From positions 18,242 through 82,241 of the forward strand of contig JAENYP010000017.1 in the NCBI GenBank assembly GCA_016841725.1: a DNA stretch of 64,000 nt. Direction: 5' to 3'. The stretch is from Thermincola carboxydiphila. Lineage in GTDB: Bacteria > Bacillota > Thermincolia > Thermincolales > UBA2595. Position numbers and translations under genes: made by a program. Each line of letters opens with the position of its first letter. The first letter of the stretch is position 1. Below are positions 39,551 through 56,557 of this stretch, piece after piece. A model generated the notes under the pieces. That model ran no database searches. It worked only from the letters and a program-made list of their open reading frames with translations, and had not been told where the DNA came from.

Positions 39551-41326
39551 ATGAGAAAATTGCAGCCGCTATTTTTAAGGGGGTTCCTGTTTCCGGTTAT
39601 CATGTTATCTCTGTTTATTACTGTTACTTTTGCCGGTCCCGCATTTGCTGATACCATAGGTCCTACATATTCGGGAATCAGTCCTGTAGAGGGGGCACAG
39701 TTAAGTACTGGAAAAGTTACAATATCAGTTACTGCCAAAGATAATGATAAGGTAAGTGATGCTTCAGTCATTATGAAGGTAGACGGGACAGCGGTTTCAC
39801 CGATAAAAGAGTATGGCTGGCTTAGTGAATGGGAGGATGACTATACAATACTAAATATTTATTACCCTGCTAACCTGTCACAGGGTGACCATACAATATA
39901 TGTGGGAGTAAAAGACGTTAGGGGAAACTTCTCTGAATACACGTGGTCCTTAACAGTGGCTGCGCCGCCGCAGATAACTTCAAAGACCCCCCTTGAGGGC
40001 GCTATAGTGACTTCTCTGAAACCCGAGATTTCGGCTGTAGTGAAAAACATTGAGGTAATTGATCCAGACTCTCTGCTAATGACTCTTGACGGAAAAAAGG
40101 TAAATGCTGAATACGATACGGCCACCGGCAGGGTTTCTTTTACACCGTCTGCAGATATTGACAATGAATCTGTTCATACGGTGACTCTTGAAGTATCCGG
40201 TCAATCAGGGAGTACAGTTCAGGCCCAATGGACCTTTAAGACAAATACATATGAGGAAATGGCTTTTAATGTGAAGGATGAAACATGCCAATCCTGCCAC
40301 CCGCGGTCAGAGCACTTGATGACTAACTGTGCCGGGTGTCACGGGACTAATCTGAATGCCAGCAGGCCGGTTTATCCCGTTGATGACTGTTATAAATGCC
40401 ATTTTGAATCATCTAATTATCCTGTTTCATATCACAGCAGCGGATTACCCGTATATGTGGCACCGGAGCATCCTGTACAGGCAACTGACAGCTGCATCGC
40501 TTGTCACGATAAAACATGGCAGACAGATATCCCCCAGTATCATACCATTACAGATACTGCTGACCGTCACCTGACATCATCAGCAGGCTGTGAGGAATGC
40601 CATGCCAAAAGCCTGACCAGGGAACACTACAGAAGGACTGACAGCGCCGGTAACAGCCTGACCTGTAACACCTGTCACACCAGCGAAGCAGCCGAGGTTC
40701 AGGATGCTATCACCAATGAGGATTCATCATGTGCGGCATGTCACGATTTGGGAGAGTCAGGAGGCCATCCGGCACACGAGGGAGGGCTGGATGCAGCCTG
40801 TCAGACCTGCCACTCGAGCTCTATACTAAGTGAACCCCAGTTCCACAGCCAGAACGGATGTCAGGTATGCCACAGTGAAAATGCCCCGGAAATAGTGCAG
40901 TATTCTATTGATACCCGCAACACAAGCTGTTTTTCCTGCCACAATGAGGGGCACAATGTCAATATGATACCTAAGGTTCCTAAAGATATACCTTTGTACC
41001 CGGGATTTGAGTGGACTGTTCCCCAGGATGCCCGGATTTTTGCAGGAGAGCTCTGGTTTGACAAGCAGTATGAATCTGCCGGGGCTAAAATAATAATTTC
41101 AGACAGGCAGCAGTCAGTTGATGGGAACGATGTCGCCTCATGGTATGAGCTGGAACTGGGTCAAAACGGTTGGACAAAATCAAAGGAAAACATTAATACT
41201 GCAGATAATTTCTCAGTAACCTATACTAAGGAAAACAGGATGGTTACTGTCAATTTCTATGCAGGAGAAACCAATGATCCGGCAGCTCCATTTGTAGGCC
41301 ATAAAATAGAAATGCTGTATAAATAG
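39551..41326 (+). CDS. Secreted decaheme c-type cytochrome with Ig-like N-terminal domains
   Basis: A 591-aa protein with a signal peptide (cleavage near AFA-DT at residue 34). Residues 35-240 hold two Ig-like sandwich domains (VTISVTAKDNDKVSDASV; HTVTLEVSGQSGSTVQAQW). Residues about 245-470 carry ten CxxCH heme motifs (QS, AG, YK, IA, EE, NT, AA, QT, QV and FS as the xx pairs), and the last 120 residues form a further beta domain. Such proteins move electrons across the Gram-positive cell surface, to minerals or partner cells. Expressed alone after a long leader. Confidence 0.93.
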   Translation: MRKLQPLFLRGFLFPVIMLSLFITVTFAGPAFADTIGPTYSGISPVEGAQLSTGKVTISVTAKDNDKVSDASVIMKVDGTAVSPIKEYGWLSEWEDDYTILNIYYPANLSQGDHTIYVGVKDVRGNFSEYTWSLTVAAPPQITSKTPLEGAIVTSLKPEISAVVKNIEVIDPDSLLMTLDGKKVNAEYDTATGRVSFTPSADIDNESVHTVTLEVSGQSGSTVQAQWTFKTNTYEEMAFNVKDETCQSCHPRSEHLMTNCAGCHGTNLNASRPVYPVDDCYKCHFESSNYPVSYHSSGLPVYVAPEHPVQATDSCIACHDKTWQTDIPQYHTITDTADRHLTSSAGCEECHAKSLTREHYRRTDSAGNSLTCNTCHTSEAAEVQDAITNEDSSCAACHDLGESGGHPAHEGGLDAACQTCHSSSILSEPQFHSQNGCQVCHSENAPEIVQYSIDTRNTSCFSCHNEGHNVNMIPKVPKDIPLYPGFEWTVPQDARIFAGELWFDKQYESAGAKIIISDRQQSVDGNDVASWYELELGQNGWTKSKENINTADNFSVTYTKENRMVTVNFYAGETNDPAAPFVGHKIEMLYK

Positions 41327-41384: not shown

Positions 41385-41475
41385 AGGATCAGGCAGCCGG
41401 ACTGTCCGGTGAGCCGGGCTTCTACGCAGCAGGATAGCCTGTGGGACCTCAACGGAACCACAGGCTTTATTAATT
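41385..41475 (+). promoter_or_regulatory. NiCo (czcD-type) riboswitch with overlapping terminator
   Basis: The 5' leader of the metal exporter gene carries CAGGCA, then a small CCGGA/TCCGG hairpin, the conserved AGCCGGGC, CAGCAGGATAG and CTGTGGGAC, in the order known for the NiCo aptamer of Firmicutes czcD genes (Co2+/Ni2+ or Fe2+ sensors). The 3' part forms AGCCTGTGG with CCACAGGCT, followed by TTATT: a terminator overlapping the aptamer. Metal binding would prevent the terminator and switch the exporter on. Sequence recall, not a covariance search. Confidence 0.7.
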
Positions 41476-41488
41476 GGAGGGATGTCTT

Positions 41489-42697
41489 ATGACGCTTGAA
41501 CAGGAGAGCGCTGAAAAAAAAGCGGTGGCTTTGAGTTCGGTATTTGCCTCACTATTGCTTACAGGAGGGAAAATGGCTGTTGGGTTGTACACCGGAAGCC
41601 TGGGTATACTCTCAGAAGCTGCCCACTCGGCCCTGGACCTTTTTGCTGCCCTGATTACATATTTTGCTGTCAGGGTGTCAGACAGACCTGCCGATGAGGA
41701 GCATCATTACGGGCACGCCAAGGTGGAGAATTTTTCTGCCCTTATCGAGGCCTTGCTGCTGCTCCTTACCTGTGTGTGGATAATTAAGGAAGCTGTAAAT
41801 AGGTTGTTTTTTGTACATGTGCCTATTGAGGTAAATGTATGGAGCTTTACTATCCTGGTGGTATCCATTCTGGTCGATTTTTCCCGGTCAAGGGCCCTTG
41901 CCGGAGCAGCAAAAAAATATAACAGCCAGGCCCTGGAAGCTGATGCCCTGCATTTTTCCAGTGATATTCTAAGTTCGGCTGTAGTGCTGGTTGGTCTGGT
42001 TTTTGCACGGTTTGGGATAAACTATGCTGACCCTGTGGCAGCATTGATAGTAGCAGTTATTGTCATTGTGGCCAGTGTACGCCTGACCGTGAAAACGGTT
42101 AATGCACTCCTCGATAAAGCTCCTCGCGGCCTGGACAGGGATATTGCCAATGAAGTAATGGAGACACCCGGGGTTGTCGGAGTTCATAAGGTACGCCTGC
42201 GTGTAGCCGGGGGCCGCATTCACGGTGACATGCATGTGGTTATCGACAGGAACATATCATTTGTGGAAGGGCACCGGATTGCGTCCCTGGTGGAGGAAAA
42301 GCTGTCAAGGCATAGTAACGATATTTTGGTCCACTTTGAGCCTGAGGATGATTGGGAAGCCGTAAACAGCAGCATTCTTAAAACAGAACAGGCTGTCACC
42401 CGGTTAATGGTTGAGAAAAGCCCGGGAATAAAGGGATACCACAACCTTGTTGTCAGGAGGGGGCCGGGAGGCACTGATGTGATTATACATATTGTAATGC
42501 CCGGGGATATTTCTGTGTCCCGAGCCAGGGAGTACTGTGATGACATTGAAAGTGAGATTAAGAAGGAACTTGAAGATACTAATATGCATTTTCATATAGA
42601 GCCCTGTGAAGGTCTTTGTAATGACTGTCAGATTTGCCCGGACTGTGAAGAAAAGGATGAAATGACTCAAAAGGGTGAAAAGGATGAAAAGGGATAA
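41489..42697 (+). CDS. Cation diffusion facilitator (CDF) metal exporter with Cys-rich tail
   Basis: A 402-aa CDF transporter: six membrane helices, with HxxxD-type metal ligands in AAHSALDLFAALI and DALHFSSDILSSAVV, and two cytoplasmic domain repeats. The C-terminus ends with CNDCQICPDCEE, an extra Cys-rich tail that may bind metal. ATG 41489 follows TTGGAGGG. It exports divalent metal in exchange for protons. The riboswitch ahead points to Co/Ni (or Fe) as the signal. Confidence 0.92.
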   Translation: MTLEQESAEKKAVALSSVFASLLLTGGKMAVGLYTGSLGILSEAAHSALDLFAALITYFAVRVSDRPADEEHHYGHAKVENFSALIEALLLLLTCVWIIKEAVNRLFFVHVPIEVNVWSFTILVVSILVDFSRSRALAGAAKKYNSQALEADALHFSSDILSSAVVLVGLVFARFGINYADPVAALIVAVIVIVASVRLTVKTVNALLDKAPRGLDRDIANEVMETPGVVGVHKVRLRVAGGRIHGDMHVVIDRNISFVEGHRIASLVEEKLSRHSNDILVHFEPEDDWEAVNSSILKTEQAVTRLMVEKSPGIKGYHNLVVRRGPGGTDVIIHIVMPGDISVSRAREYCDDIESEIKKELEDTNMHFHIEPCEGLCNDCQICPDCEEKDEMTQKGEKDEKG

Positions 42698-42856: not shown

Positions 42857-44467
42857 ATGGTGTACAGCGGTTGTAAAAAGAAAAATTACGGAACAGTTAG
42901 TTACAGACTTCTAAATAAAAAGGTAATTGAAGATAATCTTGATACACTGATGTCCATTAATAAAAGAGTCAGTGTAACAGATGCTTTCCCCGACTTGTTT
43001 GGGGTTGATGACAGACAGGTGCTGCTTTCCTCTGTTTCCCGGTTAAAGAAGACTGTTCTTAATGAAACAGACTCGTATAGGTTTATAAAGGTCAATAATT
43101 TACTGTCGGTAATCGGAGAGATTTTTTCCGGAGAACAGTTTGTATTAAATGAAATAATGGCAGTTACCAGGTCCCGGCAGGTAAGCAAGGATATCAAAAT
43201 TCTTTTTTTGTCTTTCCTTGTTGACATTGGGATGGAAGAAGAGGTTATTGCGACACTTTTTGATCTTGACGAACTGGCGGAAATGGCTGAGTTTGCGACT
43301 GATAACCTGATAGGCCTTATCAGGGGAGATCTTGGAGATAAGCTGCTCTTTTTACAGGAGTTTGGCGGTTTTGATGACCAGGGGCAGGAGGAAATAATGA
43401 AACAGCTTGCTGAGGAAAATACCGATGCTGCTGCTGAAATGCTGGGTGTCCTGGCATATGCCTATGAAGCTGGTATTGCTGCTCCGGCTGTAAGTCTCCT
43501 GGGTAAGAATCTCAGGGCGCGAAAAGTGAGTATCCTGAATGAACTTGCATCCTGTAATGACAAGTTTATTATCGCTTTAGCCAGGCGCGTTCTTTCAGAG
43601 TGCAATAAGGACGGAAGGCGTAAGCCGTCACGCAGAAAATGGGAAAAACCCAATGGAGAGCTATATGATGCGGTTGTAAGTTCAGTAGACGGACAGGGTA
43701 ACAGGGCTGTTTGGCTTGCATGGAAACTGCCTAACCGAAAGAATAGGATAGTGGCCTTTAATTTGCTGTTGAATACGGCTACAGGAATCAAGGACTGTTT
43801 CGGTATCCCGGTTCTGACCAAAAAGGATTTTGAAAACATGATTCAAGAAATATCCCGCAGTGCGGTTGTTTTGAGAAATGACTATAAATACTGTATGTCA
43901 CTGGTTAGAGGGGCTTTGAAAAAAAACCTTTCAGAAGGCTACCGTATACCCATGGAGTTTGCTTTTTGGCGCCGGTGTATGGATGATGATATTTATCCTG
44001 AAGAATATGTTCCCGTATATAATGAATTTGTTCCTGAGACAGAGAAACAGATACAGGACTGCTATGACCGTCTGGAGATGCTTTTTGAGGAACGGGAATT
44101 TGCGGTTTGGTATGAAGAAACACCTGAAGTTTATGATACGGCTGAGGAGATTATGGCATTGGCTGACAGAAACACCGGTCAGACCTATGCCAGAAAAGTT
44201 ATGAAACTGGAGAACCGGATCATTAACAAAGTGATTAAGCCCATGCTGCCTGTAATCAAAGACCGCCTAAAAATAACAATTGATTTTCTGCAAAGGGCAG
44301 GCAAGGAGACTCTTGCCAGGGAAGCAGTTGTTTGCCTGATTACACTTGATTCTGTGCCTGTTGAGCAGCACCCGTTTATTAGGAGAATGTGTTTTGAAAG
44401 CATTTCATCTGCGATAAATAACCTGAAAAACGGGGTCGATATCAGAGTAGACCCTGAATATATGTGA
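42857..44467 (+). CDS. Unknown 536-aa helical protein
   Basis: A soluble, almost wholly helical protein with no membrane segment. Short helical pairs repeat (EEVIATLFDLDELAEMAEF; AAAEMLGVLAYAYEAGIAAP; NELASCNDKFIIALARRVLS), suggesting HEAT-like solenoid repeats, and a second half beginning near residue 270. GGAGG lies before ATG 42857. It stands alone between the CDF gene and arsR. Family not recognised; function unknown. Confidence 0.75.
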   Translation: MVYSGCKKKNYGTVSYRLLNKKVIEDNLDTLMSINKRVSVTDAFPDLFGVDDRQVLLSSVSRLKKTVLNETDSYRFIKVNNLLSVIGEIFSGEQFVLNEIMAVTRSRQVSKDIKILFLSFLVDIGMEEEVIATLFDLDELAEMAEFATDNLIGLIRGDLGDKLLFLQEFGGFDDQGQEEIMKQLAEENTDAAAEMLGVLAYAYEAGIAAPAVSLLGKNLRARKVSILNELASCNDKFIIALARRVLSECNKDGRRKPSRRKWEKPNGELYDAVVSSVDGQGNRAVWLAWKLPNRKNRIVAFNLLLNTATGIKDCFGIPVLTKKDFENMIQEISRSAVVLRNDYKYCMSLVRGALKKNLSEGYRIPMEFAFWRRCMDDDIYPEEYVPVYNEFVPETEKQIQDCYDRLEMLFEEREFAVWYEETPEVYDTAEEIMALADRNTGQTYARKVMKLENRIINKVIKPMLPVIKDRLKITIDFLQRAGKETLAREAVVCLITLDSVPVEQHPFIRRMCFESISSAINNLKNGVDIRVDPEYM

Positions 44468-44657: not shown

Positions 44658-45017
44658 ATGAAGAAAGTGCTCGACAGGTGTGAGGTAGTTTGTATTAACC
44701 ATGAGGCAGTAAACCGTGTCAGGGAAAAAATGCTTGATGAAGAGGTGATCAGGAGTATTGCCGATATATTTAAGGCGCTGGGTGACCCTAATCGGGTAAA
44801 AATTATCAGGTATCTGGCCCAGGAGGAATTGTGTGTATGTGACCTGGCACAACTGCTGGGTATGAGTCTGTCGGCGGTTTCCCACCAACTTAGGGCGCTG
44901 CGCAGCCGCAGGCTGGTTAAATTCCGCCGGCAGGGGAAAATAGTATATTATTCACTTGATGATGCCCATATTGTCGATTTGTTTAACCAGTGCCTGGACC
45001 ACGTAACCCATGACTAA
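44658..45017 (+). CDS. ArsR/SmtB-family metal-responsive repressor
   Basis: A 119-aa winged-helix repressor. The alpha-3 site carries ELCVCDLAQLLGMS, the metal-binding Cys pair of CadC/ArsR types, preceded by N-terminal Cys residues (CEVVC); the recognition helix is SLSAVSHQLRALRSRRLV. Loss of metal allows binding to the palindrome at 44607. It precedes the P-type metal ATPase by 69 bases and very likely regulates it. Cd/Pb/Zn sensing is inferred. Confidence 0.9.
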   Translation: MKKVLDRCEVVCINHEAVNRVREKMLDEEVIRSIADIFKALGDPNRVKIIRYLAQEELCVCDLAQLLGMSLSAVSHQLRALRSRRLVKFRRQGKIVYYSLDDAHIVDLFNQCLDHVTHD

Positions 45018-45086: not shown

Positions 45087-47249
45087 ATGAAAAACGGCTA
45101 TATTGCTGAAGGGAATGTAATTGAATCTGGAGTGGCCGGTTCCGGGGAAATTAATTCTGTTATTGAAGTATCTGGAATAGACTGACTGGACTGTGCAGGG
45201 AAGCTGGTTAAAAAAATTGAACAACTTCCCGGTGTGGCTGAGGTTCAGCTAAATTTTGGAGCAGGTTTGATAAAGGCGGTACACAAAAACATATCAGTTG
45301 AGGATGTTATCAGGCTTATCAAGTCCAATGGCTATGATGCCAGGGTTCAGGGTGGCCCGCAGGATGCTGCCAAGCCTGCGGGCAAACTAAAGACCAGGAA
45401 GGTTTTGGCTGTGGTCTCCGGGCTGATGCTGGGAGCAGGGTTGGTTTCCGAGTGGGCCTGGCCTTCCGGCGGTTTTCAGGTATATTTGTATGCCGCAGCT
45501 ATGGCTGCGGGAGGGTATTATGTATATAAAACGGCATTAAACTCACTGAAGAGCCTCATTTTGGATATGAATGTCCTGATGAGTGTTTCATCTGTCGGAG
45601 CAGTCTTTCTGGGACAATGGTCAGAGGGAGCGACAGTCGTGTTCCTGTTCAGTGTGGGTAACCTGCTGCAGGCATATACCATTGATAAAACGAGAAGTTC
45701 AATTAAAAAAATGATGCAGCTGGCTCCCAAGGAAGCAAGAGTAATAACCGGTGACGGCAGTGAATCCATGATTCCCGCAGAAACAGTTACTGTTGGGGAT
45801 ACGATTTTGGTGAAGCCGGGGGAGAGCATACCTGTGGACGGAACTGTAATAAAGGGCCTGTCCTGGGTGAACCAGTCCTCAATAACAGGTGAGTCCAAAC
45901 CGGTTGAAAAAACTGATGGGGAAGAAGTTTTTGCGGGTTCTCTTAATAATGAGGGCAGTCTCTTTATTAAATGCACCCACCTGGCTGCAGACAGTACTCT
46001 GGCAAAAATGATCCAAATGGTTGAAGAGGCACAGGCTAAAAAAGCCCCTTCACAGCAGTTGGTTGATGTCTTTGCCAGGTATTATACCCCTGCGGTCATT
46101 ATAGGTGCGGTTTTAGTTGTTGCAATACCTGTGCTGCTGCTGGGCCTGCCCTTTGCAGACTGGTTCTATAAGGCACTGGTACTCCTGGTTATTTCATGTC
46201 CCTGTGCACTGGTTATTTCCACTCCGGTATCTATAGTGTCGGCTATCGGCAATGCGGCGAGAAACGGTGTTTTAATCAAGGGCGGTGTATACCTGGAGGC
46301 TCTAGGAAAGGTAAAAAACATTGCTTTTGATAAAACCGGGACAGTAACAACAGGTATGATGAGTGTGACAGATATTTACCCTGTTAATGGCATTGACAGT
46401 GAGCAGCTTTTACAGGCTGCCGGCGCTGTGGAACGGTTTTCCGAACATCCCCTGGCCAGGTCGGTAATGGCTGAAGTGTCAAAAAGAAAAATTTCCCTGC
46501 CGGATTCAGATTCCTTCCGCTCATTTCCCGGGAAGGGTGCAGTATGCAAGGTGAATGGCAAAGAAATTTATGCCGGGAACAAGCGGTTTCTAAATGACCT
46601 TGGCATTCCTATGGAGGAAATTGCACAGACGGAAGCAGATCTCGAGAATGCAGGGAAATCAATCATATTTGTCACAACTTCAAGAAGATTGCTGGGTATT
46701 TTGGGGATAGAGGATGTTCCCAGGGCTTTAGCGGGGGATGCCATGCAGCAGCTGCAGCTGCTCGGCATTGAGAAGATTGTTATGCTCAGCGGCGATAATG
46801 AGGCTACTGCGGCTAATATTGCCGGAAGACTGGGAATTAAAGAGTACCGTTCCAATTTGCTTCCCGATGATAAGGTCAGGGAAGTCGAGGCCCTCACCCG
46901 GGAAGGGGAGACTGTTATGGTTGGGGACGGGGTGAATGATGCCCCAGCCCTGGCAGTTGCCACTGTGGGCATAGCCATGGGAGCGGCAGGCACCGATACG
47001 GCATTGGAAACAGCAGATGTTGCCCTGATGAATGACGAATTGCTGCATATTCCTGCTGTGATCAAACTCGGCAGAAAGACAAGGGCGATTATCGGACAGA
47101 ATGTTGTCACAGCTGTTGCCCTGAAGCTGATTTTCCTGGTTCTGACACTTGCAGGGATATCTAATCTATGGATGGCAGTGTTTGCTGATACGGGGGCTTC
47201 GGTTTTGGTGACCCTAAATGGGATGAGGCTGGCCCGCCACCGTTTTTGA
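45087..47249 (+). CDS. Cd/Zn/Pb-type P1B ATPase with in-frame TGA (putative selenocysteine) in the metal-binding motif
   Basis: From ATG 45087 (GGAGGGG ahead) a 720-codon frame contains one stop, TGA at 45183-45185 (codon 33). It falls in an HMA domain: VSGID-TGA-LDCAGKLVKKIEQLPG, where family members read GMDCxxCA. TGA therefore stands at the first metal-binding Cys (UxxC). The rest is intact: MSVSSVGAVFLGQW, SCPCALVIST membrane site, DKTGTVT phosphorylation site, GDGVNDAPAL. A hairpin with a GG-containing loop follows the TGA (45189-45209). Read as Sec, it is a metal exporter; read as stop, translation would have to restart, perhaps at 45234 without the first HMA strand. I favour Sec. Confidence 0.85.
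45189..45209 (+). promoter_or_regulatory. Candidate SECIS hairpin after the ATPase TGA
   Basis: GACTG-T-GC pairs with GC-TGGTT around loop AGGGAA, using G-T wobbles and one bulged T. The G of the loop lies about 12 bases after the TGA, slightly closer than typical bacterial SECIS, so this is only suggestive. Confidence 0.3.
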
Positions 47250-47286: not shown

Positions 47287-47418
47287 GCGCGAATGACCGT
47301 AATCCTCGACGTCGGGGGTCCCCCCATTTTGTCGGGACGGCGGCTCCGCGGGAGCCGGGGTTCCGGTAACAAAATGGGGGCTTCGTCCAGTACGCCTGCG
47401 GTTACGGTCATTCGTGCG
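47287..47418. repeat. Imperfect palindrome, copy D (divergent relative of the long palindromic repeats)
   Basis: Left end GCGCGAATGACCGTAA and inverted right end GCACGAATGACCGTAACC match the ends of copies A-C at AATGACCGT. Inside, CCCCCATTTTGT and ACAAAATGGGGG, plus GGCTCC/GGAGCC, pair. The middle is unrelated to A-C. It lies between the metal ATPase and the LysM gene. Confidence 0.65.
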
Positions 47419-56245: not shown

Positions 56246-56557
56246 TTGATTAGTTTTACAGATGCAGCACAGGAAGAAATGAAAAAAGTGCTGGATGCAA
56301 ATGATTCGGAAATGATTAGAGTTGCCTTTGCCGGAATGGGTTGAGGCGGCCCAAGTTTTGGTCTGGCTTTGGAAAAGTCAGCTAAAGACAATGATGAAAT
56401 CTTCGAATATGAAGGTTTTAAGGTTGTAATCAGCAAAGATTATAGTGACATGTACAAAAACCTCGTTATTGACTGGGTTGATAATTACATGGGCAAGGGT
56501 TTTAGCGTATCCGAAAAAGATGCGGGCGGCTGCAGCAGTTGCTCCGGAAGTTGTTAG
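56246..56557 (+). CDS. HesB/IscA-like selenoprotein (in-frame TGA at the first conserved Cys)
   Basis: TTG 56246 (AAAGGAGCG eight bases ahead) begins a 103-codon frame with a TGA at 56342-56344 (codon 33): AFAGMG-TGA-GGPSFGLALEKSA. IscA-family proteins have a Cys at this place (the GGCxG motif), so Sec replaces it. The C-terminus ends GGCSSCSGSC, like the usual C-terminal Cys pair of the family, in extended form. HesB-like selenoproteins of this type are known in clostridia. A hairpin with a G-containing loop follows the TGA (56351-56372). Function: Fe-S assembly or metal handling. Confidence 0.9.
56351..56372 (+). promoter_or_regulatory. Candidate SECIS hairpin in the HesB-like gene
   Basis: CCAAG pairs with C-TTTGG (one bulge) around an 11-base loop containing GG, with the first loop G 16 bases after the TGA, fitting the bacterial SECIS spacing range. 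Confidence 0.5.

Follow-up and report, generated by a model that had tools for sequence, protein, structure and literature searches.

Selenocysteine-containing P1B-type ATPases are already on record as a selenoprotein family (COG2217 ZntA/TIGR01525; ABB15669.1), which is listed in PMC2398784 (2008) and PMC5029168 (2016) as well as in PMC9312934 (2022) and PMC13188914 (2026). According to the latter, the majority of transporter selenoproteins of this sort have been linked to resistance against metals or metalloids, but what they do needs more study; biochemical work on any selenocysteine-containing P1B ATPase was not found in our literature search. Selenocysteine is likewise predicted in metal-site-like motifs of putative mercuric transport and mercuric-reductase-like metal-binding selenoproteins (PF02411, NF041115; PMC13188914), which differ from the ATPase analyzed here in being other proteins and not P-type ATPases. 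When compared via the published tables, the listed ATPase family and the gene described in the following have TIGR01525 and the UxxC motif in common, and no distinguishing feature was found by family and motif. The selenoprotein ATPase family has been known since at least 2008, and the present gene is an additional and clear member of this predicted family. Since the family is already published, the novelty implied by an earlier annotation made from the letters only (the sequence-only reading) is absent.

The gene was found in a window of 64,000 nucleotides, this term denoting the whole stretch of Thermincola carboxydiphila DNA that was analyzed (GCA_016841725.1, contig JAENYP010000017.1, positions 18,242 to 82,241, forward strand). 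Its features are, in window coordinates:

45087–47249, forward strand: predicted selenocysteine-containing P1B-type (ZntA/CadA-like, P1B-2) heavy-metal ATPase, 720 aa with Sec33 (translation, TIGR01525/TIGR01512, ZntA 4umv)
45159–45335, forward strand: N-terminal HMA domain, residues 25–83, with the motif G-I-D-U-L-D-C (PF00403; HMA structures)
45183–45185, forward strand: UGA codon 33, predicted selenocysteine at the first position of the HMA CxxC motif (alignment column with TGA or Cys only)
45198–45230, forward strand: candidate bacterial SECIS hairpin, stem 45198–45206/45222–45230 and loop 45207–45221 (fold and comparison)
46197–46205, forward strand: transmembrane CPC motif, Cys371-Pro-Cys373 (motif search; ZntA alignment)
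47184–47198, forward strand: ADTGA, residues 700–704 with Asp701, in the last transmembrane helix, a P1B-2 signature (alignment with ADTGA of ZntA)

Translation of the frame gives 720 codons with a single internal stop, the TGA of codon 33 in the context VSGID-TGA-LDCAGK, exactly as the sequence-only reading had claimed. The protein scores well above the curated cut-offs of both TIGR01525 (616.5 bits versus 346.25) and TIGR01512 (518.9 bits versus 313.5), thus bearing out the proposed assignment to the P1B-type metal ATPases, and is also matched by PF00122 and PF00702 in the profile search. Its best match among solved structures is ZntA (4umv; HMA domain 1mwy/1mwz) with 470 bits and residues 27–719 aligned. 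With ZntA it has the architecture, the CPC motif and ADTGA in common, and the GIDULDC sequence aligns residue by residue with GMDCAAC, the difference being that the first cysteine of the HMA motif in ZntA (residue 59 of 4umv) is replaced by Sec33, which is where the TGA had been placed previously. The HMA region matches the structures of ZntA (1mwy), CadA (2aj0) and CopA HMA domains, while its PF00403 score of 23.9 bits, obtained with selenocysteine read as cysteine, is 0.9 under the cut-off of 24.8. Downstream motifs are intact, as had been stated: besides CPC and ADTGA, the catalytic motifs DKTGT, TGES, HP and GDGxNDAP are all present (residues 415, 267, 454 and 613, respectively). Family and context point to a P1B-2 pump of the Zn/Cd/Pb type, this being the predicted class of transported metal.

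Ordinary ORF calling puts the start of the ATPase gene at 45234, whereby the HMA domain is lost. The UGA might mostly act as a true stop, with a product starting downstream, for example at GTG 45234, and lacking the HMA domain, and with read-through being minor or regulated by selenium. A 671-aa ORF beginning at this GTG indeed exists, and in ZntA-type pumps the HMA domain is not required for basic transport. Nevertheless, this reading is very unlikely, as no Shine-Dalgarno-like sequence precedes 45234, whereas a plausible and strong one, GGGAGGGGAAG, is located 5′ of ATG 45087; moreover, all TGA homologues share a conserved HMA motif surrounding the UGA, and a downstream start leaves the alternation of TGA and Cys described below unexplained.

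A first homologue scan, in which each species was represented by one genome, gave 80 loci, and in the homologues reaching codon 33 this column holds 25 TGA and 57 Cys codons but no third residue. This set was then enlarged by relatives from the phylum search and deduplicated; of the resulting 95 distinct homologues, 29 show TGA and 66 Cys, hence the alternation suggested for codon 33 was found and unrelated residues were not. None of these 95 homologues has another in-frame TGA between the 15th codon ahead of the site and the gene end. Four Cys rows (L073, L077, L088 and L092) have an N-terminus unlike the normal HMA motif and in twelve the second cysteine is replaced by Glu; leaving out both groups does not change the picture. 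Among the TGA rows, G30, C36 and A37 are invariant (25 of 25) and 24 of 25 retain Asp32. Taxonomically, the TGA version is found in Thermincolaceae and related Bacillota, in Natronincolaceae and in Actinomycetota/Coriobacteriia. Within the same class, codon 33 is TGA in every genome whose match reaches it, and a phylum sample of 199 genomes yielded 38 strong matches, 13 of which have one in-frame TGA. In a tree computed from the columns outside the HMA domain, the TGA/Cys state switches at least seven times, with at least five switches forced by well-supported branches (six and four, respectively, in an earlier tree). For example, the TGA protein from Natronincola adjoins the Cys protein from Anaerovirgula, and in Natronincolaceae the Cys protein L044 is sister to the TGA protein L025.

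A further TGA clade from the same phylum (L125–L130, e.g., L126 on the reverse strand), the proteins of which are 43–47% identical to the Zn/Cd-type pump of the window, bears the motif G-[IL]-T-U-x-D-C. Here, Thr replaces the Asp preceding selenocysteine, as in copper-type HMA motifs, so that the exact set of putative ligands varies, and a changed metal is possible in this clade.

An in-frame stop is also what a decaying gene would show, and a pseudogene, an error at 45183–45185 or a code with TGA reassigned to Trp has accordingly to be weighed. These explanations are refuted by the homologue data and their probability is virtually nil. The same TGA is carried by many independent assemblies, which excludes a sequencing error, there is no further in-frame stop across about 700 codons, and the core of the closest relative, L101, differs from the window gene by 121 synonymous versus 49 nonsynonymous codon changes (the L015 row, which loses register after the HMA domain, was left out of these counts, and the stretch upstream of the TGA has too few codons for such a comparison). 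Homologues show Cys but never Trp at the site. Besides, the ATPase gene itself terminates with TGA (47247–47249); hence, the code is standard, TGA is still used as stop and recoding is confined to one codon.

The genome is 99.99% complete and encodes all the selenocysteine genes that were to be looked for, i.e., tRNA-Sec (71.7 bits, anticodon TCA), SelA (631 bits), SelB and two SelD proteins. The selA gene (G000:C37:33603-34970) is located directly before one of the selD genes. Both selD genes (G000:C37:35023-35949 and G000:C25:82355-83272) have one in-frame TGA each. SelB was detected above the cut-off in all 13 phylum-sample genomes with the TGA version but also in 22 of 23 with the Cys version, its presence therefore being consistent but non-discriminating.

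The sequence-only reading had also mentioned a second selenocysteine gene in the window, and this one turned out to be real and HesB-like:

56246–56557, forward strand: predicted HesB/IscA-like selenoprotein, Sec33 corresponding to TGA 56342–56344 (profile matches; TGA of relatives)

It starts with TTG at 56246, ends with the stop codon at 56555–56557 and shows the TGA in the context GMG-U-GGPSFG. While below the cut-offs of TIGR01911 (57.5 versus 66.35 bits) and NF038090 (66.8 versus 85 bits), it passes the wider TIGR00049 (61.3 versus 58.8), and its relatives from the class likewise have an in-frame TGA. This putative selenoprotein gene is an independent sign of selenocysteine decoding outside the ATPase operon. 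A second HesB/IscA-like copy with in-frame TGA is present at G000:C3:44554-44829.

Downstream of codon 33, the candidate SECIS element can form nine pairs and has a loop starting with GU, with 12 nt between UGA and stem and 21 nt between UGA and loop. A loop starting with GU fits the described bacterial SECIS elements. In the alignment of six relatives, 92.6% of cells pair and two pairs show compensatory change, compared with 22–61% in slid controls; with only six sequences per hairpin alignment, this covariation is supportive but not overwhelming. The hairpin of the window itself has one C-A mismatch and modest stability (MFE z-score between –1.0 and –1.8), and owing to this weak value the case for the hairpin rests on the comparison. 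An Rfam scan of the UGA region gave no match. In Actinomycetota, the stem is different (CGC[GA]CC-GUG-GG[CU]GCG), with one G-C pair exchanged for A-U, and the GxTU clade shows a third stem form with three compensated pairs, so that the SECIS search after the UGA resulted in a conserved hairpin with compensatory changes in three clades. Moreover, folding downstream of codon 33 is stronger in 23 selenocysteine genes (median z –0.9) than in 57 Cys genes (–0.2; p = 0.002). Taken together, the alternation with Cys, the selenocysteine machinery, the hairpin and the TGA terminator argue for UGA being read as selenocysteine, and the gene almost certainly encodes a selenocysteine-containing P1B-2 ATPase pump, as judged from sequence comparison.

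Two genes with predicted roles in metal homeostasis are encoded upstream:

41474–42697, forward strand: CDF (FieF-like) cation efflux transporter (TIGR01297, 242 bits; PF01545)
44658–45017, forward strand: ArsR/SmtB-family metal-sensing repressor (NF033788, 103 bits; SmtB 1r1t, CadC 1u2w)

The repressor gene is separated from the ATPase start by 69 nt. The nearest solved structures of its product are SmtB (1r1t, 107 bits) and CadC (1u2w, 84 bits), and it carries a CadC-like ELCVCD motif as well as a C-terminal DxH...H motif. A relative of this repressor is encoded near the ATPase in 15 of 23 TGA-version and 35 of 52 Cys-version loci. The CDF gene is found upstream of the ATPase gene in close relatives only (L015, L016, L017 and L019), and a link between both transporters was consequently rejected. 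Further elements of the neighborhood are a 536-aa ORF between the CDF and repressor genes (42857–44467) without Pfam or NCBIfam match, a multihaem c-type cytochrome with bacterial Ig-like domains (39551–41326) just upstream of the metal-efflux genes and, soon after the ATPase stop, a GC-rich inverted-repeat-like stretch seen by eye (47315–47385, CCCCCATTTTGT ... ACAAAATGGGGG), possibly a terminator or repeat element.

For the function of the system, the following scheme can be proposed. With rising metal concentration, the SmtB/CadC-like repressor encoded upstream would switch the ATPase gene on. SelB together with the selenocysteinyl-tRNA would bind the hairpin at 45198–45230 and selenocysteine would be inserted at codon 33. 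The HMA site would then offer Asp32-Sec33-x-x-Cys36 at the position of Asp-Cys-x-x-Cys in ZntA. The first thiolate would thereby be replaced by a selenolate, which, being deprotonated at cell pH, might bind soft metal ions more readily. The HMA domain might tune or feed the transmembrane CPC/Asp site carrying the ion, and the pump would export metal ions of the Zn/Cd/Pb class.

In this scheme, Sec33 probably acts as a metal ligand in the HMA domain. Its counterpart in the homologous HMA domains of ZntA and CopA is an established metal ligand, and this, together with the retention of Asp32 and the location of the ATPase gene behind a metal-sensor gene, speaks against a redox role. The latter would mean that selenocysteine is inserted but that a Sec33-Cys36 selenenylsulfide switches the HMA domain, or that Sec33 serves as a readily recovering thiol. 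UxxC is the usual motif of redox selenoproteins, and most families in the published survey tables are thiol oxidoreductases; still, a redox function of Sec33 appears rather unlikely. Returning to Sec33 as metal ligand, it is cautiously favored that this residue may make the exporter selective for soft metals (Cd, Pb, Hg), with its output depending on both metal and selenium supply.

If this is true, selenium would serve metal coordination and not redox catalysis in this ATPase family, and would have been swapped with cysteine several times in evolution. The many natural selenocysteine/cysteine pairs, some of them in close relatives such as Natronincola (Sec) and Anaerovirgula (Cys), represent a good set for probing selenocysteine at a metal site.
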